From contig RECI01000165.1 of NCBI GenBank assembly GCA_007694095.1, forward strand, positions 1 to 50,230: DNA of 50,230 nt, read 5' to 3'. The translations under genes were made by a program, and so were the position numbers. The DNA is from Balneolaceae bacterium. Lineage in GTDB: Bacteria > Bacteroidota > Rhodothermia > Balneolales > Balneolaceae. Below the pieces are notes generated by a model. That model was given only the letters and a program-made list of their open reading frames with translations. It was not told the DNA's origin and ran no database searches. Each line of letters starts with the position of its first letter. Position 1 is the first letter of the stretch. Below, in pieces: positions 30,956 through 50,224 of the stretch.

Positions 30956-31522
30956 TTACCCTGTTGCCCAGGTTCTGCCAATTTCTTCAAATGGCACACA
31001 TCCGTCATAAAAACCCGGCACATGTTCATATCGGAGTACCTGTGTTGCACCTGTTTCAGAAGTAAAAAAACCAACCATGGTTAATTCTTTAAAAACCAGG
31101 AAAAATTGTGGCCCTTCAATTGCCTCATTTTTTATTGCCAGCCTGTTTTGATCCAATGCATAATTGTACTGCTCTTCCTTGCTAAGATCAGAAAAGTTTT
31201 TTCCAGTTGAAGTTCTGCACTCATGATTGAATAAATCAAGGCCGGATAAAAACATCTCTCTCTGTTCCTGATTATAAACCTCATTTACCATCTTTTCTAT
31301 AAAGCCGGGAACACCAACGTCCACTGCTCCCGGTGTATCACTTGAAGGTATTAGGATGTCTGCAAGAGCTGTGGTCAATGATGCCTGGTTCCTGTTGAAT
31401 AACACCGGAATCCATCGTTCATCTGTTGGCGTACAACCTTTAAGAACTCCCAGTATGTTTGGAGCAAAAATTATTCCTCCCATTAATGCTGCTGTCCGTT
31501 TTAAAGCTTCTCCGCGTTCCAT
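30956..31522 (-). CDS. Gluconate 2-dehydrogenase subunit 3 family protein, orphan
   Basis: The 188-residue protein begins MERGEALKRTAALMGG and ends CVPFEEIGRTWATG, typical of the subunit-3 family whose members accompany GMC-type flavin dehydrogenases. Subunit 3 usually carries an exported leader of twin-arginine type; here the pair is degenerate (ERGEALKR), which weakens Tat export. Mature features include ALADILIPSSDTPGAVDVGVPGFIEKMV and LTMVGFFTSETG. No GMC oxidoreductase gene lies beside it, so the catalytic partner must be elsewhere or lost. Confidence 0.8.
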   Translation of the reverse strand: MERGEALKRTAALMGGIIFAPNILGVLKGCTPTDERWIPVLFNRNQASLTTALADILIPSSDTPGAVDVGVPGFIEKMVNEVYNQEQREMFLSGLDLFNHECRTSTGKNFSDLSKEEQYNYALDQNRLAIKNEAIEGPQFFLVFKELTMVGFFTSETGATQVLRYEHVPGFYDGCVPFEEIGRTWATG

Positions 31523-32905: not shown

Positions 32906-34408
32906 CTACAGTATTTCGACTGCTGTATGCCTGTACATATTTTTGGCTTTCTGATCCATCAATCCCACACTATTATGAGGTTCAATTCTTTTTTTAATTT
33001 TTTGTATCAGAGACTTTGCTTTTACCTCATCCCGATTGTTGTCTAAAATTTTTATTTCACAATAAATATCTTCTACGAGGCTATGAATTTCTTTATCCGC
33101 CGCACATAAAAATGTATCCGGGATTTTACCTTTTAAACGGCTTTGTTCATATCGAACTGATGCAATGAAGTACAACATAACTGCTGCTGTAAACAGAGGG
33201 AAATACCACCTGCTTTTATAGCATGATGCTACAAGTTTATCAATAAAAAGTAACTCTTTTTTGAATTCGTCCTGTATCTTGGCAAGAGCATCAGGTAGTT
33301 GCGAATCGGTTGTGGTTTTATCAAATATCCTGGTGGTTTTCTCTATTCCGGATAATGTAAATGCAATCCCGGTACTATGCAGGGGATCAACAAACCCGGA
33401 TGTATGGTGCAGCGTAAGCCAGCCATCACCGTACGTATGATCGAGCATTCGTTGAAGTCTTCCTGTTTTTATCAATTTGCCCGGTACCCGGGCCAGTGAT
33501 GAATCTTGAAAAAGTTTATATACAGATGGATACTTCCCAATAACCTCTTCCCATATCTGCGCTGAAGATTTTTGTCGAAATTCCACACTATCTAAATCGA
33601 TTACAATCCCGGCACTCAATAATTCATTATTAAAACGAAGAAGCCAAACCCAGCCTTCGTCAATAATCTGATGCAGAGCAGAATGATCAGGGTTGTATGG
33701 ATAGTCGTCTGTAGAGAACTGTCTCTCCGTTAAATAATCCAACCATCTCCGAGTTTGGACAAAGTGGGAAAAGACTGCTTCGGAGTTGGTTTCAAACCGG
33801 CTGGAATCAGTTGATGTTCCAAAAAAGGTTTCAGAAAAAAAAGATGAACCTGTAGCGTCAATTATCCAGTTACAAGATATTGTCTCTTCTTGTCCCCCGA
33901 TATTGATCCGGGCTAACCATAGGTGGTCTGTCCTCTGCAATTTTTTAACGGTTGCATTTTCTTCGATCCTTACACCAAGCTTTCGCGCCTCTTTAACTAA
34001 AAAATGATCTACATCGCTTCGCAGCCAGTTGGTATCCGAATTTTCATCGTTTTCACTGGCTGCAATAAGCAGTTCGTTGTTGTGGTTGCTGTCACTCATA
34101 AATTGTTCACCTGCCTTGTGCGGATAATAGCTGAACCCTCTTTTAAGTCCACATACCACCTCAGGATAATGTTTTTGCCAGGTTCCGTATCGCGATAATT
34201 TTTTCAGAAAAGGCAAATCATATTGTTCAGAAAAATCACGTAATATCATGTCTGCGATCGGTGTTGAAGATTCTCCCACAGAAAACCTTGGATGAATTTC
34301 CCGTTCAACCACACAAACTCCGAATCCCTTTTTCTTTAAAACCATAGCTGTTATCGAACCTGCAAAACCCGAGCCCACAATTAAGAAATCATATATTTTA
34401 CCGGCCAT
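32906..34408 (-). CDS. FAD-dependent halogenase-like oxidoreductase
   Basis: This 500-residue flavoprotein starts with a Rossmann motif (FLIVGSGFAGSIT, Gly12, Gly14, Gly17), followed by RFSVGESSTPIADMIL, as in flavin-dependent halogenases and related monooxygenases. The family-typical FVDPLHSTGIAFTLSGIEK is present near 345. The halogenase WxWxIP motif is altered to WVWLLRF (about 252), so halogenation is doubtful; a flavin oxidase, desaturase or hydroxylase is possible. A hydrophobic stretch sits near 405-420. It lies 20 bases after the radical SAM gene, forming a two-gene unit. Confidence 0.8.
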   Translation of the reverse strand: MAGKIYDFLIVGSGFAGSITAMVLKKKGFGVCVVEREIHPRFSVGESSTPIADMILRDFSEQYDLPFLKKLSRYGTWQKHYPEVVCGLKRGFSYYPHKAGEQFMSDSNHNNELLIAASENDENSDTNWLRSDVDHFLVKEARKLGVRIEENATVKKLQRTDHLWLARINIGGQEETISCNWIIDATGSSFFSETFFGTSTDSSRFETNSEAVFSHFVQTRRWLDYLTERQFSTDDYPYNPDHSALHQIIDEGWVWLLRFNNELLSAGIVIDLDSVEFRQKSSAQIWEEVIGKYPSVYKLFQDSSLARVPGKLIKTGRLQRMLDHTYGDGWLTLHHTSGFVDPLHSTGIAFTLSGIEKTTRIFDKTTTDSQLPDALAKIQDEFKKELLFIDKLVASCYKSRWYFPLFTAAVMLYFIASVRYEQSRLKGKIPDTFLCAADKEIHSLVEDIYCEIKILDNNRDEVKAKSLIQKIKKRIEPHNSVGLMDQKAKNMYRHTAVEIL

Positions 34409-34428
34409 AATTGATCAAATTTTAAAAG

Positions 34429-35472
34429 TTAGCATGTACAGACAATCCGTGGCAAAATTCTCTGTTCAACGTTCATTTTTATTAACCTGTTTTTTCGTTC
34501 ATCAAAACAGTTTACACATGTTGAAAATTTTTCAAGGTCCCAGGTGTCGCAAAAAACCCTCCCTTTATTTAATTGTAATATCCTATCAAATGTTGATTCA
34601 ATCGCTTTAAACCGTGGCGGGATAAATTGCCCTGATTCTCTTAATTTTTCCATAATTCCATTCCCTTCTCTTACAGGGATGATTGTACAGGCTGTAACAC
34701 CGCAATCAAATGCATATTCTGCTGATTTAATACACCATTCAATATTCTCATTTTCATCCAATAAAAAAGGCGGATTTAATAATATGAATGCGCGTACATC
34801 AATCCCTTTTTTTATCAGGAATTCACTGGCATTAAGAAAATCTTCTTTGGTAACCTGTTTGTTCAGGGCGGGCAGTACCTCCGGGTGAATAGTTTCCAAT
34901 CCCATGGCAATCTCAAACGTACTGTTCAAGGATAAACGGAACTCATCAATAAACGGGCCGGTCAATTTTGGATGGTTTTCAACGATTACATGATTATATC
35001 CACGGAGCAAATATGCAATTGAGTTATAATCTGATTTGGGGATCGCTTTACCATCAAAAAAATTTCCGCTGTTGTATAGTTTTACAACAGGTGCATATGG
35101 TAACTGTTGGTGCGCAAACTCTATCTGTGCCGGTATGGCTCCCCGCGGTGTAGGTTTGTCCAGTGTGTGCCGCCACAGGTCGCACATGGTACATTTAAAC
35201 GGGCATTCTCTGTTGGTTAAAAAAATAGTATTTACCTTTTTTAGTATTCCATCTTTTTGAACCTCTTCTTCGTGAAGCCACGCATAGGGACGCATAACGT
35301 CAATTTTTTCTTTAGCCGGCCGGTAGGATTCAATAATTGTGTTACTGATATTTTTGATCAAAAAGAATATCCTTATTGTTGAAATAGCACTGTCTGAACT
35401 TGTTTCCGGAAAGATAACATTTTCAGCAATCTCATGTTCCCCCCTGTTAAATCTTCTGCACTTTACATACAT
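34429..35472 (-). CDS. Radical SAM protein with extra C-terminal cysteines
   Basis: This 347-residue protein has the radical SAM cluster motif CxxxCxxC (Cys90, Cys94, Cys97; RECPFKCTMCDLW), preceded by about 80 residues of unknown fold. Further motifs are VVKLYNSGNFFD, the AMGLETIHPEVL barrel strand and FVCDTWDLE-like text near 307. Four cysteines near the end (319, 322, 345, 347) could ligate an auxiliary Fe-S cluster. I recall the general family but not a proven function. It forms a unit with the halogenase-like flavoprotein and diverges from the Wzi-like gene, with 49 bases between starts. Confidence 0.82.
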   Translation of the reverse strand: MYVKCRRFNRGEHEIAENVIFPETSSDSAISTIRIFFLIKNISNTIIESYRPAKEKIDVMRPYAWLHEEEVQKDGILKKVNTIFLTNRECPFKCTMCDLWRHTLDKPTPRGAIPAQIEFAHQQLPYAPVVKLYNSGNFFDGKAIPKSDYNSIAYLLRGYNHVIVENHPKLTGPFIDEFRLSLNSTFEIAMGLETIHPEVLPALNKQVTKEDFLNASEFLIKKGIDVRAFILLNPPFLLDENENIEWCIKSAEYAFDCGVTACTIIPVREGNGIMEKLRESGQFIPPRFKAIESTFDRILQLNKGRVFCDTWDLEKFSTCVNCFDERKNRLIKMNVEQRILPRIVCTC

Positions 35473-35521: not shown

Positions 35522-37015
35522 ATGATGCGGATATTATTATTTGCCCTGTTTCTAATTTTTTGTTTTCAGTCATTAGCTGTTGCTCAAAACGGCCTGATTG
35601 TTGAATCTTCAGGAATTTTCAGCTCAAGTGATCGTACACCCTTTTGGCTGCAGTCTAACAGGCATGGAATGTATGCCCGCAATGGAAGCCAGGCTTTTTC
35701 CAGGATTCAGTACCATTCTGCTGTTGAAGAGATTGGCCCGCTGAATGTCTATTACGGTGCTGATCTCATTGCACGGCCCGGTTCAGAATCTACATTAAGT
35801 TTTAACCGTGGTTATATAGCACTTCAGGCATATGGCATGGAATTTATTGCCGGCAGGTTTTATAATACATCACCGATTCATGCGGCTGACCTGAGCATGG
35901 GGTCCCTTGGAATCAGTAACAACGCCACACCAATCCCACAGATACGAATAGGCCTTATTGATTGGGCATCAATTCCTTTCACAAATAACTTCATACAAAT
36001 TAAAGGCCATTTATCACATGGCTGGCTCGGAAGCAGGCGATATACGGAGGACCTGCTTCTTCATGAAAAAGTTGGACATGTTAAAATAGGAGGTGATTTA
36101 CCTGTTAACGTGTATGCGGGAATTGCACATTATGCAAAATGGGGTGGAAATAACCATCCTGAATTCGGCGACATACCAACCCGTTTTTCTGATTACATGA
36201 ATGTATTTTTGGCAAGGCCGGGTGATGAACGTACTCCCGGGCCTATGCAGACGTATGTTTTGGGTAATCACCTGGGAGCATGGGATTTCGGTTTTTTTCT
36301 TGATATTGGTGAAACCAATGTTACATTTTACAGGCAGCATCCTCTCGAATCCCGCGATAACCTGAAATTAAAAAGCCTTCAGGATGCATTGACAGGGATT
36401 TCCATTTCGTTGCCGAATCAAACCAGATTGCCATTCAACAGAATAGTCTATGAATATTTATATTCAAAATACCAGGATGGCCCCCGCCGCAGCAATGAAG
36501 GCGATGATTTGGTGAGAGACTTGTACCGCGGAAATGAGAATTACTATAATCACGGCATTTACCGCAGTGGCTGGGTTTATCACCACCAGACCATTGGAAA
36601 CCCTTTATTCACACCATCTGATTCTAATCTGGGAATATTGAACAACCGGATTGTAGCACACCATGCCGGATTATCCGGATCTATCGAATCGGTAGAATAT
36701 ACTGCCAAAGTTACATATAGCAGAAACTATGGGAAATACTGCGACAACCGGGTTCCTGATCTGGGCGACCAGGAGCTGTTTGGTTATCAATGCGTAAATG
36801 AACAGGACGGGGTTACATTTCTCGACAAAATTGTTACCATTGGCGGACACTCTGTTACTCAATGGGCATTTTTTGCCGGAATGGCCGTACCAATTTTGTC
36901 GAACAGCAATCACCGCATAACCCTTTTGGTTGAAACGGCATTCGACCAGGGCGCATTAACCGGCGACCAGTTCGGGATACTGGCCGGATTTAGGTGGAGG
37001 CCCGGCAAACCATGA
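35522..37015 (+). CDS. Wzi-family capsule assembly outer-membrane protein
   Basis: This 497-residue protein has a Sec signal peptide (cleavage likely after SLAVA before QNG). The rest has repeated amphipathic beta segments typical of the Wzi/CapAssemb barrel: TPFWLQSNRHGMYA near 38, FNRGYIALQAYGMEFIAGRF and HGWLGSRRY. Wzi proteins attach capsule polysaccharide to the outer surface. No capsule biosynthesis genes are adjacent, so the surface polymer is unknown. It diverges from the radical SAM gene and ends directly before a strong terminator. Confidence 0.85.
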   Translation: MMRILLFALFLIFCFQSLAVAQNGLIVESSGIFSSSDRTPFWLQSNRHGMYARNGSQAFSRIQYHSAVEEIGPLNVYYGADLIARPGSESTLSFNRGYIALQAYGMEFIAGRFYNTSPIHAADLSMGSLGISNNATPIPQIRIGLIDWASIPFTNNFIQIKGHLSHGWLGSRRYTEDLLLHEKVGHVKIGGDLPVNVYAGIAHYAKWGGNNHPEFGDIPTRFSDYMNVFLARPGDERTPGPMQTYVLGNHLGAWDFGFFLDIGETNVTFYRQHPLESRDNLKLKSLQDALTGISISLPNQTRLPFNRIVYEYLYSKYQDGPRRSNEGDDLVRDLYRGNENYYNHGIYRSGWVYHHQTIGNPLFTPSDSNLGILNNRIVAHHAGLSGSIESVEYTAKVTYSRNYGKYCDNRVPDLGDQELFGYQCVNEQDGVTFLDKIVTIGGHSVTQWAFFAGMAVPILSNSNHRITLLVETAFDQGALTGDQFGILAGFRWRPGKP

Positions 37016-37062: not shown

Positions 37063-38391
37063 TCAGCTGTACAATGAAGAGAAGTATCTTCTGTAAACCA
37101 TCTCATCATCAGGAAAAATCTTCTTAAAGTCTTCCATTGCAACCGTGCCATGTTGCATTCTGCGCTTGGGAAACACAGGCATTTCAAAGCCGGTTACAGC
37201 TTTTACACCCCGTTTTACCACTTCACCTTTAAGTGCATAGAGTTCTTCGTGTTTCCAATTGGTTAATTGAATGAATGGAATACCCTCAGAAACCTCGATT
37301 ACATTGGGAAGTGTATATGGGCTGAAACCTTTAAAGCCGTACCTTTCTGATGTTGCGTATGTACGAACATGCCCGCGGCTTTGTCCCCCGCTATAGGTAA
37401 GTGAGTGTTTGATTTTGTCAACACCCCAACCTTCATGATACAGCAAGGGATTGTTTAATACACTCCGTATAGTTAGTTCAGGATTGTCCTCAATAGGATA
37501 AGATTTAAGGTTTTCGTCTCCCCCATCTCCGTCAGCAAGATATTTCCAGTTAGGATACCGCTTCCGAATTTTCTTGCAGAGTGCAAGTGCCATGGTAGCA
37601 GCCTCTACGTCCCGCTGCTTGTAATCTTCAATTACCCGGATAGTTTCTTTGTAATCAAGGTCAGAAAGCTCACCGTCAAACAGTTCATGGAATATGCTCA
37701 GGCCGAGTTTGTCGAGAAACACATGAGCCTGGGCACCGTCGGGTCCGCCATTTACAGCTAAAGTAAAGGCTTTCAGCCTGGCTGGTGATTCTCCACGCTT
37801 CAGTAACAAATCATAAAGAACCAGGAAAACGGAACCGCTGTCAATACCACCGGAAAAAAGTACACCTAACGGTTCATCTTTGGGTATGGAATCGAGCCAT
37901 TTGTTGCATTCGTTGGCCATTGCGCCTACATATGCCTCACCAATTGCATCAAGGTCCGAATTCAGCCTGTTTCTCTCGGGCGTGAAATACCGTTTGTAAT
38001 TGGGATTGGGATCAGGACAGCCAATAACATCGAGCCGTGTAACATAGTGGGCTGGTGCCATTCTCGTATAATCCGGACGAAATTGGTAGTGAAGGTTAAT
38101 TTCTTTCAGATATTCATATATATCGTCTATACGGTCTGCCACTATCAAAAGCGGCCCGGCTTCCTGTTTCGCCATAAAATAGCGCATAGGCCTGCCAATA
38201 GATCTTGCCATGAATACCTGGTTCCCAACCTTGGTCACAATTGCAAAACTGCCATCAATTGTGCGAATTTTATCAGGGTCGCCGGTAGCTACAATCTTCT
38301 CGGCATTTTCATTGCTCATATTAAAAATCTGGTTCAGAGCGGGATCAATCAGATTTACAAAATCATGAAGTTTCTGTACAACTTTTGGCAT
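37063..38391 (-). CDS. Asparagine-synthetase-like protein lacking the glutaminase cysteine
   Basis: The C-terminal synthetase domain has the ATP-pyrophosphatase loop LFSGGIDSGS (residues 178-187) and the later DGDGGDENLKS, so it can probably adenylate a carboxylate. The N-terminal 120 residues keep the outline of the glutaminase domain (DGSFAIVTKVG, MARSIGRPMRYF), but the protein begins MPKVV instead of MC, removing the Ntn nucleophile. It may therefore use free ammonia or an amine, as do some beta-lactam and RiPP-type relatives. It converges with the Wzi-like gene; its substrate is unknown. Confidence 0.78.
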   Translation of the reverse strand: MPKVVQKLHDFVNLIDPALNQIFNMSNENAEKIVATGDPDKIRTIDGSFAIVTKVGNQVFMARSIGRPMRYFMAKQEAGPLLIVADRIDDIYEYLKEINLHYQFRPDYTRMAPAHYVTRLDVIGCPDPNPNYKRYFTPERNRLNSDLDAIGEAYVGAMANECNKWLDSIPKDEPLGVLFSGGIDSGSVFLVLYDLLLKRGESPARLKAFTLAVNGGPDGAQAHVFLDKLGLSIFHELFDGELSDLDYKETIRVIEDYKQRDVEAATMALALCKKIRKRYPNWKYLADGDGGDENLKSYPIEDNPELTIRSVLNNPLLYHEGWGVDKIKHSLTYSGGQSRGHVRTYATSERYGFKGFSPYTLPNVIEVSEGIPFIQLTNWKHEELYALKGEVVKRGVKAVTGFEMPVFPKRRMQHGTVAMEDFKKIFPDDEMVYRRYFSSLYS

Positions 38392-42662: not shown

Positions 42663-43565
42663 CTATGTAACTGCGAACAACCTTGCTGTTACAATTGATC
42701 CAACAAAAACTCCCAACACTATGATTCCCAATATAATACCTGAAAAACCAGCAGCTATAACACTATTCATCAACACAAGTGAAATTACTCCACGTTTTAC
42801 CGCTTTTTTAATGAAACCGGCTTCTGGTTGAACAGACACCCGGTAAAATGAAGGCAAAACCATGATGGCAAAAAATATCAGAAAAGGCAGTGCAGTAAGC
42901 ACATCAAACCCAACCAGAAAGGTAAGTGCGGGCAATCCGGTTATCACAAGAAGGATCATTGCAAATGCAAGCTTCCCATGCAGTGAACTTCCGCCGGAGA
43001 CCTCTCCCCTGCTAACCAACGTAATCGAGCCAATGTAGATAACCGGGAAAAACAGGAGAAACCATATATCACCTATGGCCTGCGGCAGAATAGCAGCCCC
43101 CAGCAATAAGTTTCCGCCTCTGCATAATCCCATAAAGAGAGGCCCGAAAACTGGCGAGTGTTTCGCTTTGATATCATAGGCCAAGGTAAGAAATACTATC
43201 ACAACAGATAACCAACCGGCTACAGGATTTACCTGAAAAGCTGAAACAACTCCAACCAAATACAAACAAGAACCCAACACTGATGCCCCAACCCTTGAAA
43301 TTCTCCCGCTCGGAATCGGTCTCTCCGGACGTTCTTTAGCATCAAGTCGCGCATCAAACACATCATTAAAGACAACACCTCCTCCGTACAAACCGAACGT
43401 TGCCATCAGCAGCCATCCTAAGCCAGCAGGTTCAATCAGAATTCCTGCACCTGTAAAGATCAAGATCCCTCCTGCCGCTGCAAAACCGGCCAAAATGTCA
43501 GCAAAAGCCGTAATGATGTTAGGTGGGCGCATCAGCTCAAGGCAGGCTCTGATCTTATCTGTCAT
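42663..43565 (-). CDS. eboC: EboC, UbiA-family prenyltransferase
   Basis: This 300-residue integral membrane protein has about eight or nine hydrophobic segments and the UbiA aspartate-rich motif NDVFDARLDAKERPERPIPSG (Asn67, Asp68, Asp71, Asp75), which binds Mg and prenyl diphosphate. UbiA enzymes attach a prenyl chain to an acceptor. The ebo cluster context, with genes for eboA, eboB, eboD, eboE and eboF nearby, identifies it as EboC. The acceptor and prenyl donor of the ebo pathway are unknown. Confidence 0.92.
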   Translation of the reverse strand: MTDKIRACLELMRPPNIITAFADILAGFAAAGGILIFTGAGILIEPAGLGWLLMATFGLYGGGVVFNDVFDARLDAKERPERPIPSGRISRVGASVLGSCLYLVGVVSAFQVNPVAGWLSVVIVFLTLAYDIKAKHSPVFGPLFMGLCRGGNLLLGAAILPQAIGDIWFLLFFPVIYIGSITLVSRGEVSGGSSLHGKLAFAMILLVITGLPALTFLVGFDVLTALPFLIFFAIMVLPSFYRVSVQPEAGFIKKAVKRGVISLVLMNSVIAAGFSGIILGIIVLGVFVGSIVTARLFAVT

Positions 43566-43751
43566 GGATGCGAATTTGATATATTTTCAATCCCGGATTA
43601 TTCATTCTAAAAATGGAAAAAATGTTGTTATCAAATAATTTGTTATTTGGCTTTACAAAAAAGCAGGTGGATTCGGCTGATGCGGGATTTCAATAATCTG
43701 GAGTTTTTAGTTTGCTCCTAAGGTATCGGGACTGTCGCTATGGCTCCTGCT

Positions 43752-43780
43752 TTTCGCTTCGCGGGAATCACTTCATTCTG
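43752..43780 (+). repeat. Dispersed 29-base repeat, copy 2
   Basis: This plus-strand stretch matches the minus strand of 222-250 at about 24 of 29 positions, centred on the GGGAATC core. It sits in the eboB-eboC gap next to other hairpins. Confidence 0.5.
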
Positions 43781-43820
43781 CTATGTGGGATAAATCAGGA
43801 GCGCTGACGCTCTGAGTACC

Positions 43821-43842
43821 TTTCACTTTTTGCTTTTTGCTT
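43821..43842 (-). repeat. AAGCAAAA/GTGAAA-type simple repeat, tract 1
   Basis: On the minus strand the tract reads as AAGCAAAAAGCAAAAAGTGAAA-like units, about 7 bases each. It lies downstream of eboB and matches the second tract at 43901-43934 in style. Such imperfect heptamer runs are seen between genes in several Bacteroidota relatives; function unknown. Confidence 0.5.
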
Positions 43843-43867
43843 ATAAAATCGTTCAACTCTGCCAGGA

Positions 43868-43889
43868 GCCCCGACGGGCTTGTCGGGGC
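43868..43889. repeat. GC-rich hairpin
   Basis: GCCCCGAC (43868-43875) and GTCGGGGC (43882-43889) make a perfect 8-pair stem around the loop GGGCTT. It sits between two simple-repeat tracts downstream of eboB and could stop transcription before eboC or be a short dispersed element. Confidence 0.6.
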
Positions 43890-43900
43890 ACTCTTGCAGG

Positions 43901-43934
43901 TTTCACTTTTGCCTTTTCACTTTTCACTTTTGCC
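43901..43934 (-). repeat. AAAAGTGA-type simple repeat, tract 2
   Basis: On the minus strand this tract contains imperfect AAAAGTG heptamer units (for example AAAAGTGAAAAGTG), directly after the eboB stop at 43943. It is a simple-sequence tract with strand bias in purines, which may vary in length between strains. Confidence 0.55.
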
Positions 43935-43942
43935 AAAACCGA

Positions 43943-44881
43943 TTATTTAATTATCAAGTCATCCACGTCAGACGCATTATCGAGTTCTTCTTCAGTAAAT
44001 GGGCGATGCCCTCCGCGCAAAATGGTATTCCCGCTGAATGTTTGTGACTGGTCAATTTTTGGCCGGTTGAGCCAGTCTTCCTCATTGAACTGGCCGCTTT
44101 GTCCATATGCATCCAGCGCATTCTGATAGGTAACTTTTTTAACATCCTGTTTTGAAATACCCCGTTCAATCATCAATTTGGCAGTTTTGGGAACTCCGAG
44201 CGGGTCGCTGTGTCCCCAGTCAGCAGCGCTGTCGATAAAGATTCGCTCCGTTCCATATTCTTTTACAATATCGACCATTCGTTCATTGCCCATCTTTGTG
44301 CCCGGATAAATAGTGAATGCAGTCCAAAAACCGCGGTCGAGCACATCTTTTACCGTTTCCTCGTTATTGTGATCGATTATCACACGCGAAGGATCCATGC
44401 CAAGTTCAACACAGACATCCATGCTTCGGATGGTCCCCTCTTTTTTATTTCTGTGAGGTGTATGTATAAGCACAAGCATATTAAATTTTTTGGCAAACTC
44501 TACCTGTTTCCTGAAGTACTTATCCTCGAGTTTGGTCATGTCGTCGTACCCGATTTCACCGATCGCTACAACACCCTCTTTTCCTGCATACCGCGGAATA
44601 AGTTCCATAACCTCATCAGCCAGTTTTTCGTTATTTGCCTCTTTTGCGTTTAACCCGATGGTGCAGTAATGCCGTATGCCAAATTGTGCAGCCCTGAACC
44701 TCTCCCAGCCTACAATCCAGCTAAAATAATCGAGCATCGTACCGGCATTGGTGCGTGGCTGGCCAATCCAGAATGCGGGTTCGATGACAGCCACAATACC
44801 TGCAATTCGCATGGCTATATAATCATCTGTAGTCCTGGAAATCATGTGTACGTGCGGGTCAATAAACATCATATCTTTCAT
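43943..44881 (-). CDS. eboB: EboB, TatD-like metal-dependent hydrolase
   Basis: This 312-residue TIM-barrel hydrolase has the metal-binding pattern FIDPHVHM (His10, His12), VAIGEIGYDD, LVLIHTPHRN, VIIDHNNEE and FIDSAADWG, as in the TatD/amidohydrolase families. The position in the ebo cluster, 44 bases after eboA, identifies it as EboB. Its substrate in the ebo pathway is unknown. The metal residues look intact, so it is likely an active enzyme. Confidence 0.92.
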   Translation of the reverse strand: MKDMMFIDPHVHMISRTTDDYIAMRIAGIVAVIEPAFWIGQPRTNAGTMLDYFSWIVGWERFRAAQFGIRHYCTIGLNAKEANNEKLADEVMELIPRYAGKEGVVAIGEIGYDDMTKLEDKYFRKQVEFAKKFNMLVLIHTPHRNKKEGTIRSMDVCVELGMDPSRVIIDHNNEETVKDVLDRGFWTAFTIYPGTKMGNERMVDIVKEYGTERIFIDSAADWGHSDPLGVPKTAKLMIERGISKQDVKKVTYQNALDAYGQSGQFNEEDWLNRPKIDQSQTFSGNTILRGGHRPFTEEELDNASDVDDLIIK

Positions 44882-44925
44882 TGAATGAACTTCTTTAAGT
44901 ATTAAAAATATTGATTTTTTTTGAT

Positions 44926-45843
44926 TTAACGTGTGGCCGATTCGTGTCTTTTACCAATATCATCCCACATAATATTGTTTTTTTCAATTTCATCGAGAAC
45001 TTCCTGATGCTGCTGAAGTAATTTATCCTTCAGGGGGCAATCACATGCAGAAAGTGCCAATACAGCGGCCTGTTTTTGAATTGGGTCAGAATCACTCAGC
45101 ACCCGTTCCAAATCCGGAATAAATTGCTCAGTGATAAATGGCCCCACAACACGCCAAAGTTCAGGCGAAACATTCCTTCCGGCTGACCACCTTTCGTGGG
45201 CATATTCCACAAGGATCTTTGCCAGTGTGGCATTTGCCCGTTTATCAACTCCCATAATTTTATAAAGCGGGCTTCCGACAAAAAGGGCTTTAAGTACAAT
45301 CTGGTTCCATGCCCCTTCTTCCAGATATTCCATAGGGTATGGATTGTTTAGCGCAACCGCATCAAAAACAGGTGTGATATTGCTTCGAACACCCTCCGCA
45401 GCCCTTTCTCTAAATCTTTCGGGAAATGGATAAACAGGCAGAGCCTGGTAAAGTGCAACGGCTTCACCCAGGTCGCTGGTCACAAAAATTTTTTCAATTT
45501 TATCAAGGAATTCCTCTTCACCCTGTTCGGCGTAACTTAACAGCAGCAATGTTCTGCCTGCTTGATCTGCCGTCCAGTTTGCAGGTTTCCAGCCCGGGCG
45601 AAGCCTGCCTGCTTCATCAAGTTCTCCAGGAGTTAGCTGTAGCAACTCTTTGCCGGTATGCCTCGGTGTTGTACTGAACGAAGTGTAAAGCTGCCAGTCT
45701 TCAGGTTCACCCATCAGGTCTTTTGCCGCTGATTCAAGCCATGTAAACGCTTCATCGTCAAGACGGCTTTTCAGCCACCTCAACAGTATTTGCCTGATTG
45801 CAACGGATTCTTTTGGTAATTTTCCCATGTTGTGCTGCATCAA
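44926..45843 (-). CDS. eboA: EboA domain protein
   Basis: This 305-residue protein has the EboA family hallmark NNPYPMEYLEEGAWNQIVLKALFVGSP, followed by RANATLAKILVEYAHERWSAGR and VSPELWRVVGPF. It is mostly helical and probably soluble, with no signal peptide or membrane segment; a HEAT-like helical array near the end (LERVLSDSDPIQKQAAVLALS) suggests protein binding. Its biochemical role is unknown. It is the first gene of the leftward ebo arm, divergent from eboD. Confidence 0.9.
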   Translation of the reverse strand: MMQHNMGKLPKESVAIRQILLRWLKSRLDDEAFTWLESAAKDLMGEPEDWQLYTSFSTTPRHTGKELLQLTPGELDEAGRLRPGWKPANWTADQAGRTLLLLSYAEQGEEEFLDKIEKIFVTSDLGEAVALYQALPVYPFPERFRERAAEGVRSNITPVFDAVALNNPYPMEYLEEGAWNQIVLKALFVGSPLYKIMGVDKRANATLAKILVEYAHERWSAGRNVSPELWRVVGPFITEQFIPDLERVLSDSDPIQKQAAVLALSACDCPLKDKLLQQHQEVLDEIEKNNIMWDDIGKRHESATR

Positions 45844-46260
45844 AATAAGTGATTATGAAACATTCCGGTATTGTCCGGGAAACGGTTGCCCCTTAATCCC
45901 GGAATAAATGCAGATATACGATATTATTACCGTTATCTGTTATGATACCGAATATTTCAATGAATATTGAGATTGTAAAATTCAGTTATTCAGGTGTGGA
46001 ATCCAAACTATTCTTGGTATTATCATTGCATTATTTACGTATTTTTTCATCCTGTTTTGGTTTCATAAATTTTTGTCAATCTATAAAACTATCATAATGC
46101 CTGTGAGTAGTTATTACGAAACTCATTCCATGAGGAATAATTGATTCATGGCATATCATGAATTTCACTTTAGAAACAGGCCTCCCGAGAAGCATATTGA
46201 AGTCAAAGCATTTTTTTAATACCCCATGTAATAATGAAGTAAGATTTACCTGAATTAATA
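45844..46260. other. Divergent promoter region of the ebo cluster
   Basis: These 417 bases lie between the divergent eboA and eboD starts, so promoters for both arms should be here. The DNA is AT-rich. It contains an ATTCCGG/CCGGAAT inverted repeat (45862-45868 and 45899-45905) and a palindrome near eboD (46144-46163). No gene is supported; a 63-codon frame on the minus strand overlaps the eboD start and looks spurious. Confidence 0.55.
46144..46163. promoter_or_regulatory. Palindrome upstream of eboD
   Basis: ATTCATG and CATGAAT (7 + 7 bases, 6-base spacer GCATAT) form a symmetric site 97 bases upstream of eboD, inside the shared ebo promoter region. It is a candidate operator for a dimeric regulator. 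A hairpin without T-run is the alternative. Confidence 0.4.
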
Positions 46261-47448
46261 ATGTCATCTATAAAACAGCAATTTACTGTATCATTTCGGT
46301 ATGATGTTCATTTTACATCATCCGTTTTCGATCCCTCTAACCCCCTATTCTCAGATGTGATTGGTTCAGGATCAACTGCCAGATCCCCTGAGAATCTAAA
46401 TAAAGTATTGATAGTACTGGATAAAGGCTTTCTTAAATCTCATCTGGGGATTTTTGAAAAAATTAAGTTGTACAACAAACAGTACAATAAGAGTTTTGAA
46501 TTAATATCTAATCCGGTCATCATCCCCGGTGGTGAAGAAGCCAAGATCAAACCTGAATATGCGGAACAAATTCTTAATGCTATAAATACCAGTGGAATTG
46601 ACCGGCACTCATTTTTGGTTGTGATTGGCGGTGGTTGCGTGATCGATACCGCCGGTTATGCCGCTGCTATTGCACATCGCGGTGTTCGGCTGATACGCCT
46701 CCCTACTACCGTGCTTGCACAAAACGATGCTGCTATTGGGGTAAAAAACGGAATCAACGCATATGAGAAGAAAAATTTTATCGGCACGTTCGCACCTCCG
46801 TTTGCTGTGATCAATGACTCTGAATTCCTGAAAACCCTGGACGCCCGCGACTGGCGATCCGGTATTTCAGAGGCGGTTAAGGTGGCACTTCTTAAAGACC
46901 CTTTGTTTTTTGACTTCATCGAAAAAAATGCCGTTGCCTTGTCGAATCGTGATATGGAATCGATGAAATACCTCATTTATCGTTGTGCTGAGCTTCACCT
47001 CGAACACATTACCACCTCAGGTGACCCGTTTGAAACAGGTTCATCGCGACCGCTCGATTTTGGCCATTGGGCAGCTCATAAACTGGAACAGCTCACAGGT
47101 TTTGAACTTAGGCATGGCGAAGCGGTAGCCATCGGTCTGGCGCTGGATGTAACCTATTCGTACCTGAAGGGCGACTTAAGTAAAACCGAATGGAAAAGAA
47201 TTACCCAGGTATTACAGCAGTGCGGGTTTACCCTTTTTGTACCGGAACTGCGCAGCAGGCTCGATGACCCGGCCAATAAACATTCTTTGCTCCGCGGACT
47301 CGAAGAATTCAGAGAACATCTTGGAGGACAACTAACCATCATGCTGCTTAAAGGAATCGGTCAAGGTTACGAAGTAAACACTGCGGATACCAATCTCTAC
47401 ATAAAAGCCATCCGTTTGCTTGAAAAAATGGAAAAAGAACTGGTTTGA
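46261..47448 (+). CDS. eboD: EboD, 3-dehydroquinate synthase-like protein
   Basis: This 395-residue protein has the 3-dehydroquinate synthase (AroB) fold: VVIGGGCVIDTAGYAAAIAHRG (NAD binding), LIRLPTTVLAQNDAAIGVKN, and metal-site residues Glu204 in GISEAVK, His269 in DFGHWAAHKL and His285 in RHGEAVAIG. In the ebo cluster this gene is EboD, and it probably cyclises a sugar phosphate rather than serving the shikimate pathway. It starts the rightward ebo arm, divergent from eboA, and eboE follows after 153 bases. Confidence 0.9.
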   Translation: MSSIKQQFTVSFRYDVHFTSSVFDPSNPLFSDVIGSGSTARSPENLNKVLIVLDKGFLKSHLGIFEKIKLYNKQYNKSFELISNPVIIPGGEEAKIKPEYAEQILNAINTSGIDRHSFLVVIGGGCVIDTAGYAAAIAHRGVRLIRLPTTVLAQNDAAIGVKNGINAYEKKNFIGTFAPPFAVINDSEFLKTLDARDWRSGISEAVKVALLKDPLFFDFIEKNAVALSNRDMESMKYLIYRCAELHLEHITTSGDPFETGSSRPLDFGHWAAHKLEQLTGFELRHGEAVAIGLALDVTYSYLKGDLSKTEWKRITQVLQQCGFTLFVPELRSRLDDPANKHSLLRGLEEFREHLGGQLTIMLLKGIGQGYEVNTADTNLYIKAIRLLEKMEKELV

Positions 47449-47601
47449 TTAACCTGCACAGTTTACCTTAGTTTTATAAACAAAATTTCTCGTGTTTTAC
47501 TACACCTTGGTTCATAAATGACATTTTCTTTATCATATTCTTAAGCAATATTTTACACTAATAACTTAAATAAATTATAGAATATTTCTGATCGAAAAGA
47601 C

Positions 47602-48828
47602 ATGCAACCAGATTCACACCCCGGCATCCATCTGACATACTGCTCGAACATACATCCCGGAGAATCATGGGTAGCTACATTCCAACAGCTGAAAATTCAC
47701 GTTCCGGAACTAAAATTGCGGTTGTCAAAAAATCAACCTTTCGGGATCGGGCTCCGGCTTTCCGCTGATGCCGCAGAGCAAATTCTCGAACCGGGAAAAC
47801 TCAGTGAATTTAAATCATGGCTCCAAAAAGAAAATTTATATGTATTTACCCTCAACGGGTTTCCATATGGTAGTTTTCACCGTGAGCGGGTAAAGGATGA
47901 TGTTTACAAGCCGGATTGGCGCACAGATGAACGTTATAAATACACAGCCAGGCTTATTGATATTCTCGCAGAACTGACACCAACAGGCAGTGAAGGCAGT
48001 ATTTCCACATCGCCCGTCTCATACAAGTACTGGAATGAGTCTGAAGCGTCGATGCAGTCAGTTGCTAAAACAGGAGCCATACACCTGGCTAATCTGGCTC
48101 ATAAGATGGCAATGATTAAAGAAACACAGAATAAAGATATTCATGTCGACCTGGAACCGGAACCCGATTGCCTGATTGAAAATACCCCTGAAACGATCAC
48201 TTTTTTTCAAAATGTGCTGATCCCTGAAGGGACAAGCCATCTTGCCTCTGCGTTCGGAATTTCCCATGAAAAAGCAGAAGAAATCATCAGAACCCATATC
48301 GGTGTCTGTTTTGATACATGTCACTTTGCACTGGAGTATGAAAATCCCCGTGAATCGCTCGCCGCATTCCGGGATGCAGACATCCGTATTGGAAAAGTAC
48401 AGGTAAGTGCCGCATTAAAAGTCACCCTGGGTGATTCCAATCATCGAAAAGAGTCGGCTGAACGCCTGCAGCGATTTATTGAGCCTGTGTATCTTCACCA
48501 GGTATTAGAACGGCGTACAGATGGAACTATCCGGCAATACAGGGATTTACCGGATGCACTTCCACACATTTTTGACGAACATGTCCTCGAATGGAGAGTG
48601 CATTTTCACGTTCCGGTTTTTGTAGGCCATTTTGATGGACTTTCCTCTACCCAGGATGAGATTATACAAAGTTTGCGAGAAATTTTAAATGGCAGCTACA
48701 GCCGCCATTTTGAAGTTGAAACATATACCTGGGAAGTGCTTCCTAACGGCCTAAAAACCGGACTCACCGATTCTATCGAACGGGAATTAAGGTGGGTACA
48801 GGATGTTTTGACAAACCTTAAATCCTGA
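47602..48828 (+). CDS. eboE: EboE, xylose-isomerase-like TIM-barrel protein
   Basis: This 408-residue protein begins with the family signature GIHLTYCSNIHPGESWVATF and carries the barrel motifs FTLNGFPYGSFH, DIHVDLEPEPDCLIENT, VCFDTCHFALEYENP and WRVHFHVPVFVG. These give His, Glu and Asp positions typical of metal-dependent sugar isomerases and epimerases. The reaction in the ebo pathway is unknown. It is 22 bases before eboF, so the last two genes are surely co-transcribed. Confidence 0.92.
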   Translation: MQPDSHPGIHLTYCSNIHPGESWVATFQQLKIHVPELKLRLSKNQPFGIGLRLSADAAEQILEPGKLSEFKSWLQKENLYVFTLNGFPYGSFHRERVKDDVYKPDWRTDERYKYTARLIDILAELTPTGSEGSISTSPVSYKYWNESEASMQSVAKTGAIHLANLAHKMAMIKETQNKDIHVDLEPEPDCLIENTPETITFFQNVLIPEGTSHLASAFGISHEKAEEIIRTHIGVCFDTCHFALEYENPRESLAAFRDADIRIGKVQVSAALKVTLGDSNHRKESAERLQRFIEPVYLHQVLERRTDGTIRQYRDLPDALPHIFDEHVLEWRVHFHVPVFVGHFDGLSSTQDEIIQSLREILNGSYSRHFEVETYTWEVLPNGLKTGLTDSIERELRWVQDVLTNLKS

Positions 48829-48850
48829 ACGATTAATAATATCCCGGGAA

Positions 48851-50224
48851 ATGAAAAAAACAGCTGTTATTAATGTTGTTGGATTAACACCGGATCTGGT
48901 TGGAGAACATACACCATTTTTAAAATCATGGGCAGCCAAAGGTAAAATGGCTTCAGTGGAAGCGATGCTGCCGGCCGTCACATGTTCAGTGCAATCCACG
49001 TACCTAACCGGTCAAATGCCTGATAAACACGGCATAGTAGCCAATGGGTGGTATTTCAGGGAGATGGATGAGATAAAATTTTGGCGCCAGTCAAACAAGT
49101 TGGTTCAGGCCCCTAAAATTTGGGAAGCAGCAAAAGAAAGAGATCCGGATTTTACCTGTGCAAATCTTTTCTGGTGGTATAATATGAATTCAACCGTTGA
49201 TTTTCTCGTTACACCAAGGCCGATTTACAGGGCTGACGGAGTGAAAATTCCGGATATACTTACACATCCATCTTCATTGCGGGATGAGCTCCGGGAAAAA
49301 CTCGGCCAATTTCCGTTATTTAATTTTTGGGGGCCTAACACGAATATTCAGTCAAGCCAATGGATCGCAGAATCAGCCAAATATGTATTCGAAAAGCTGC
49401 AGCCTACCCTTTCTCTCGTTTACCTGCCTCACCTTGATTATAACCTTCAGCGAATTGGCCCTGATAACCCCGGAATCGGGCAAGACCTTCTTGAAATCGA
49501 CACAATTTGTGAAGATCTCATTTCATATTATGAATCACATAACGTACAGGTTATCGTACTTTCGGAGTATGGAATTGAACAAGTGGATAATCCGGTATCA
49601 ATAAATCGTGAATTGAGAAAGAGTGGTTATGTTACTGTGCGTGATGAACAGGGTGGTGAAGTTCTCATACCAGGGAGCAGCAGGGCTTTTGCTGTGGCAG
49701 ATCACCAGATCGCCCACATTTATATTCGTGAAAAACAGGATATTCCGGAAATCAAAAAGCTGATTGAAGGATTGCCCGGTGTGGAAAAAGTACTGGATGA
49801 AGACGGCAAAGCCCGGCACCATCTCAATCACGAACGCTCAGGTGAACTGGTGGCAATTGCTGATGAAAAATCTTGGTTTACCTATTATTACTGGCTTGAT
49901 GATGCGAAAGCTCCCGACTTTGCGCCAACTGTTGATATCCACACAAAACCGGGATATGACCCTGCCGAATTGCTGATTGATCCGAAAATAACGTACCCTA
50001 AATTGAAAGCCGGAATACGCCTCTTGCAAAAAAAACTTGGTTTTCGTTACACCATGGATCTTATACCCATCGAAGGCAGTGGAGTAAAAGGCTCCCACGG
50101 ACGCATACCGACCTCCCGGGAAAAACATCCACTTATTATCTCTCAGCAAGTTGACAAAATCGTTAAAGACACTCTCCACCCTACTGAAGTTTTCAATGTG
50201 ATTAATTCTCATATCTTTGAATAA
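48851..50224 (+). CDS. eboF: EboF, alkaline-phosphatase-superfamily phosphodiesterase
   Basis: This 457-residue protein resembles type I phosphodiesterases/nucleotide pyrophosphatases. The nucleophile is probably Thr44 in LPAVTCSVQSTYLTG, and HGIVANGWYF follows. Later are YLPHLDYNLQRIGPDNP, VIVLSEYGIEQVD and EGSGVKGSHGRIPTS, the metal-ligand regions. The opening INVVGLTPDLV lacks the Asp that family members usually carry at strand 1. The protein has no signal peptide. It closes the rightward ebo arm, and its stop lies 6 bases before the window end. Confidence 0.9.
   Translation: MKKTAVINVVGLTPDLVGEHTPFLKSWAAKGKMASVEAMLPAVTCSVQSTYLTGQMPDKHGIVANGWYFREMDEIKFWRQSNKLVQAPKIWEAAKERDPDFTCANLFWWYNMNSTVDFLVTPRPIYRADGVKIPDILTHPSSLRDELREKLGQFPLFNFWGPNTNIQSSQWIAESAKYVFEKLQPTLSLVYLPHLDYNLQRIGPDNPGIGQDLLEIDTICEDLISYYESHNVQVIVLSEYGIEQVDNPVSINRELRKSGYVTVRDEQGGEVLIPGSSRAFAVADHQIAHIYIREKQDIPEIKKLIEGLPGVEKVLDEDGKARHHLNHERSGELVAIADEKSWFTYYYWLDDAKAPDFAPTVDIHTKPGYDPAELLIDPKITYPKLKAGIRLLQKKLGFRYTMDLIPIEGSGVKGSHGRIPTSREKHPLIISQQVDKIVKDTLHPTEVFNVINSHIFE

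Follow-up and report, generated by a model that had tools for sequence, protein, structure and literature searches.

In a Balneolaceae locus, the radical SAM gene (RS) and flavoprotein gene (FAD) are the last two members of a cassette of three genes, ASN-RS-FAD, that is inherited and lost as one unit. The window analyzed here is the whole 50,230-nt stretch of DNA from a Balneolaceae bacterium (GCA_007694095.1, contig RECI01000165.1, positions 1–50,230, forward strand), and all three genes lie on its minus strand. ASN (37063–38391) encodes an asparagine-synthetase-like ligase of 442 amino acids (PF00733, 46 bits), RS (34429–35361) a RaSEA-like radical SAM enzyme of 310 amino acids from a probable TTG start (TIGR01210, 93 bits), and FAD (32906–34408) a flavin-dependent halogenase-type flavoprotein of 500 amino acids (PltM, 2.1e-38). 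The initial annotation had described two minus-strand open reading frames 20 bp apart (32906–34408 and 34429–35472), which are indeed present, and had recognized no pathway gene next to them. The latter is incorrect. Clustering of open reading frames from 25 related loci revealed a third, asparagine-synthase-like gene upstream of the RS-FAD pair in nearly all of them; in the window, this conserved partner is split off from the pair by a Wzi-family capsule assembly gene on the opposite strand (35522–37015, plus strand; PF14052).

Insertion of the Wzi gene is specific to one lineage and masked the three-gene operon: the wide gap between ASN and RS is restricted to one genus, and the gap is small nearly everywhere else. 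Nine of the 47 genomes with ASN and RS on one contig have a gap of ~1.7–2.0 kb, all of them in the window's genus, and a Wzi homologue was confirmed between the two genes in six loci, the window included. One other genome carries an unrelated 3.1-kb insert with a histidine kinase, and the remaining gaps are 5–317 bp. Due to its restriction to the window's genus, the Wzi gene was rejected as a member of the cassette. An apparent fusion of RS and FAD in genome G175 (an 805-codon open frame) was also rejected: a stop codon separates the two genes, and the long frame is an upstream extension in GC-rich DNA.

ASN and RS occur in an identical set of 51 of the 245 genomes of the class (Fisher p ~6e-54, with genomes treated as independent, which they are not). 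FAD is found in 50 of these 51 genomes; in the exception (G273), RS runs up to the end of its contig. Three additional class genomes have a FAD match without ASN or RS. Two of these matches (G335 and G377) are of the ordinary WxWxIP type. The third (G362) has the cassette-type motif and is located at the start of a contig, and its upstream partners may therefore be absent from the assembly. Gene order and strand are invariant wherever the genes are contiguous (47/47 and 47/47). In a phylum sample of 247 genomes, ASN occurs in exactly the 16 genomes that match RS strongly, and the trio is also present in another class of the phylum. The same trio, with order and strand kept, is found in Phycisphaerae MAGs. 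The pairing, for which the initial annotation had proposed a survey of conserved co-occurrence, is thus kept over several families and two phyla, and it withstands the refutation criterion given there, by which a pairing not conserved in related genomes would be accidental. The cassette is patchy within genera, with species having and lacking it both in the genus of the window and in a second genus (g7), and several gains or losses must therefore have moved all three genes together, despite the nonindependence of genomes that underlies the p-value. The between-species distance matrices of the three proteins are correlated (Pearson 0.88–0.94), with ASN being the most conserved (median 60% identity) and FAD the least (38%).

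The FAD protein belongs with the PltM/PrnC/CtcP-type flavin halogenases. It matches the Trp_halogenase family (PF04820, E 1.1e-13), and its closest solved structures are PltM (2.1e-38; 1e-63 by profile) and tetracycline 7-halogenase (6.3e-36; 1.1e-54 by profile). The GxGxxG FAD-binding motif (GSGFAG, residues 12–17; 34358–34375, minus strand) is kept in 22/22 cassette members. Lys89, within KRGF (34142–34144, minus strand), aligns with the catalytic lysine of PltM and with tetracycline 7-halogenase, and is invariant in 22/22 cassette members and in 5/5 noncassette relatives. The FxxPxxSxG motif (FVDPLHSTG, residues 339–347; 33368–33394, minus strand) retains its P, S, and G in 22/22 members and its F in 18/22, with I or V instead in four members of one genus.

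The WxWxIP motif is altered in all 22 cassette members, being GWVWLLRF in the window (WVWLLRF, residues 253–259; 33632–33652, minus strand). The cassette pattern is W-x-(W/Y)-x-L-(R/H/G)-F, mostly WxWxL(R/H)F, with the G in one member and WxY in two, and the motif is lost further in Phycisphaerae (WMYVLHF). A six-residue deletion beside it is common to the cassette members. The five noncassette relatives (a Chroococcidiopsis halogenase, an Azotobacter salinestris PrnC-like enzyme, a Streptomyces protein, and two proteins of the class) retain WxWxIPF, and their loop is longer; the gene for the Azotobacter enzyme adjoins PrnA- and PrnB-type genes, and that for the Streptomyces protein adjoins a flavin reductase gene. 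All cassette FAD proteins fall in one clade (100/100) in a maximum-likelihood tree with only five outgroup rows. The alteration reported in the initial annotation is real and extends to the whole cassette subfamily. The doubt about halogenation that had been attached to it carries less force: the altered motif is weak evidence against this activity, because Lys89 and FxxPxxSxG are kept and some active flavin halogenases lack WxWxIP, which is not universal among active members (PMC8407142). Judged by its sequence, then, the FAD protein is plausibly a halogenase, the activity favored by the retained catalytic lysine and FxxPxxSxG.

The RS protein is a member of the radical SAM superfamily, as indicated by a match to PF04055 (30.1 bits), a CxxxCxxC [4Fe-4S] motif (CPFKCTMC; 35182–35205, minus strand) whose three cysteines are invariant in the alignment, and Foldseek matches to radical SAM structures (partial TIM barrel). 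Its annotated frame, which starts with ATG and extends to 35472, is over-extended; homologues start ~35 residues later, and alignment and DNA together point to the TTG codon at position 35361, with AAGGAT ahead of it, as the probable start, giving a protein of 310 amino acids. The AlphaFold2 model (pLDDT 90) consists of the bare radical SAM core, with Foldseek matches to Elp3, pyruvate formate-lyase activase (PFL-AE), lipoyl synthase, and MiaB. A CxxC and CxC pair at the C-terminus of the window protein is not essential to the family, since Phycisphaerae and one Bacteroidota-side family lack it. The only NCBIfam match of the window protein is TIGR01210 (RaSEA), which is also the best one for the four cassette RS proteins scanned, with scores of 48–104 bits among the scanned relatives. 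The score of the window protein (93 bits) is far below the curated cut-off of 212, and the chemistry of RS may thus differ from that of RaSEA. RaSEA produces archaeosine from the lysine adduct that ArcS forms on the preQ0 of tRNA (PMC11298593). No ArcS was found beside RS in the loci inspected, the conserved partners being ASN and FAD.

The sequence-level match of ASN to asparagine synthetases is limited to the ATP-pyrophosphatase half, with a score of 36 bits to the asnB model (cut-off 267). The PP-loop (SGGIDS, residues 180–185; 37837–37854, minus strand) is identical in 23/23 aligned members, and the N-terminal, glutaminase-like part has the nucleophilic cysteine of the glutaminase (residue 2) in none of these 23. 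Beta-lactam and carbapenam synthetases likewise lack this cysteine. Identity among cassette members is 51–96%, and the motifs GCPDP, DG(D/E)GGDEN, and KRRxQxG are specific to the family and highly conserved. The AlphaFold model of ASN is poor (pLDDT 53), and no claim on individual residues is based on it; its best Foldseek matches, nearly full length, are human ASNS, AsnB, and the beta-lactam and carbapenam synthetases. Because of the quality of the model, catalytic residues beyond the PP-loop can be assigned only by inference, and KRRxQxG may be the counterpart of the AsnB catalytic lysine.

These features suggest, with about an even chance of being right, that the cassette encodes a dedicated small-molecule pathway consisting of an amide ligation, a radical step, and the halogenation or oxidation of an electron-rich ring. 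ASN would act as a ligase without a glutaminase role, given that the ATP-pyrophosphatase loop is kept and the glutaminase cysteine is absent. It would use ATP to adenylate a carboxylate, which would then be joined to an amine supplied by free ammonia, an amino acid, or, as in beta-lactam synthetase, the same molecule. The [4Fe-4S] cluster of RS would cleave S-adenosylmethionine, and hydrogen would be abstracted from the conjugate. RaSEA acts on a lysine just attached by its partner enzyme, and by this analogy C-N cleavage or rearrangement would be the most likely outcome. The FAD protein would form HOX from FADH2, O2, and halide and pass it to Lys89 for halogenation of the electron-rich ring; alternatively, it would carry out an oxygenation, a possible activity in view of the altered WxWxIP in all members and its further loss in Phycisphaerae. 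The idea of a dedicated modification by two redox enzymes, already put forward in the initial annotation, is retained in this proposal, with three genes, including one for an AsnB-like ligase, in place of a pair without a partner. A more specific version, to which we attach a rather low probability, is that the logic of ArcS and RaSEA has been moved from tRNA to small molecules, with ASN attaching a group, RS cleaving or rearranging the product, and halogenation following; the result would be a new class of halometabolites in Balneolaceae, related families, and Phycisphaerae.

Among the alternatives, the most credible, though still clearly less probable than the pathway proposed, is that the FAD protein, though of the halogenase fold, is an oxygenase or a dehydrogenase and that the product of the cassette is not halogenated. 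The cassette-specific change from WxWxIP to WxWxL(R/H)F and the adjoining six-residue deletion speak for it, as WxWxIP is thought to keep the substrate off the flavin (PMC8407142). Against it are the invariant Lys89 (22/22), the mostly kept FxxPxxSxG, the several genuine halogenases that lack WxWxIP (PMC8407142), and the failure of 3nix, an uncharacterized flavoprotein of the fold, to align through the lysine segment. We regard a role in RNA or DNA base modification as improbable. RS is similar to TIGR01210, and Elp3 and MiaB are among its top Foldseek matches, but its score is well below the cut-off, its 310 amino acids comprise the core fold without an appended RNA-binding domain, no tgt or que gene lies beside the trio in the inspected loci, and halogenases of the clade to which the FAD protein belongs act on small aromatics (PMC8407142).

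Only slightly better placed, and improbable too, is modification of a ribosomal peptide, in which ASN would serve as the cyclase (lasso-type or amidating) and RS and FAD would do the tailoring. RiPP clusters can contain AsnB-like cyclases, radical SAM enzymes, and halogenases, and the occurrence of such enzymes there favors this reading. A halogenase together with an amidotransferase also has a precedent in such clusters (PMC12715798). However, no small open reading frame (20–110 amino acids) within 2.5 kb is common to different lineages, the families of small frames that recur in three to four loci being within-lineage and mostly antisense, and no carrier protein, transporter, protease, or recognition-element gene is conserved with the trio in the loci inspected; a precursor could be encoded remotely. 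Accidental adjacency of unrelated genes, for which the separation of ASN by the opposite-strand Wzi gene in the window might be taken to speak, has practically no probability and is refuted by the co-occurrence statistics and by a gene order that does not vary across the several families and two phyla with the cassette.

In the loci inspected, the three genes have no further neighbor that is kept from one lineage to another, and neither a flavin reductase nor a resistance gene accompanies the trio. A defense system was rejected, as there was no PADLOC match. Three genus-mates have RES/Xre toxin-antitoxin pairs adjoining the cassette, after FAD in L025 (4418–5328) and L026 (12751–13650) and before ASN in L035 (13642–14540); lack of conservation led us to reject them as partners. 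In four loci from distant lineages, a lipoprotein-like TPR/FG-GAP/UnbV gene occurs near the cassette: it overlaps the FAD end in L032 (12083–15283), adjoins FAD in L042 (3965–7504), and lies near ASN in L084 (2–1516) and L085 (15034–15738); it is beside the cassette in few lineages and absent elsewhere. One locus has, immediately upstream of the complete ASN, a partial duplicate of the ASN N-terminus (residues 30–100, 46% identity; G050:C5:22822-23034; L047 6826–7035). The window also contains a gluconate-2-dehydrogenase subunit 3-like gene (30956–31522) without a neighboring GMC oxidoreductase gene; in four related loci a GMC oxidoreductase gene directly adjoins it, and GMC paralogues occur elsewhere in the window's genome.

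An ebo cluster (42663–50224) is located 4 kb from the cassette in the window. It consists of EboC (42663–43565, minus strand; NF035940, 343 bits, above cut-off), a TatD-like gene (43943–44881, minus strand), EboA (44926–45843, minus strand), a DHQ-synthase-like gene (46261–47448, plus strand), EboE (47602–48828, plus strand), and a 457-amino acid open reading frame. Among the 245 class genomes, 26 have the DHQ-synthase-like gene, and 13 of these 26 also have the cassette (odds ratio 4.8, p 4e-4, without correction for kinship). The ebo cluster and the cassette are less than ~20 kb apart only in the window, in the sister genome G273, where they are on contigs of matching number, and in G287. 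As ebo is present in 13/51 cassette genomes, it was rejected as an obligate partner.

Carriage of the cassette by plasmids or phages was rejected, since ASN is absent from plasmid, phage, and viral collections. Plasmid matches to RS are distant ones on Streptomyces plasmids, with cytochrome P450 and SHMT. On Streptomyces sp. F8 plasmid pFRL5, the radical SAM gene in a run of genes (L049 12010–16871) is RaSEA-like (TIGR01210, 173 bits); the run also has genes for a cytochrome P450, a serine hydroxymethyltransferase, a glycosyltransferase, and a carbamoyltransferase, and is probably a natural-product cluster. A Pirellulaceae homologue of RS (L033) stands alone, near PGK.

What had appeared to be a gene pair is now a strictly co-inherited three-gene unit that is small enough for cloning whole, and we found no description of this trio in the open-licence papers searched. 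We know of no characterized halogenated metabolite from the groups that bear the cassette. The cassette FAD proteins constitute a natural subfamily of probable halogenases with a remodeled WxWxIP, which offers a direct test of the role of the motif in halogenation versus oxygenation. They resemble PltM, PrnC, and CtcP (tetracycline 7-halogenase) in fold, GxGxxG, the place of the lysine, and FxxPxxSxG (~25–27% identity), and differ from these in WxWxL(R/H)F, the six-residue loop deletion, a separate clade (100/100), and the constant neighbors ASN and RS. RS represents a bacterial RaSEA-like enzyme. It shares with RaSEA the best NCBIfam model (TIGR01210) and the pairing of a radical SAM enzyme with a group-attaching partner, and differs in its score (93 versus 212 bits), its bacterial host, and its AsnB-like and halogenase-like partners in place of ArcS. 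ASN is similar to AsnB and the beta-lactam and carbapenam synthetases in its ATP-pyrophosphatase domain, SGGIDS loop, and two-domain layout by Foldseek, and differs from the AsnB family in the missing N-terminal nucleophilic cysteine, its own motifs, and its score (36 versus 267 bits). Ammosamide biosynthesis involves the halogenase Amm3 and the putative asparagine synthetase Amm20 (PMC12715798). Unlike the trio, it relies on carrier-peptide assembly by PEARLs and has many further genes and no such radical SAM gene, but its flavin halogenase and AsnB-like amidotransferase serve one small aromatic metabolite (PMC12715798).
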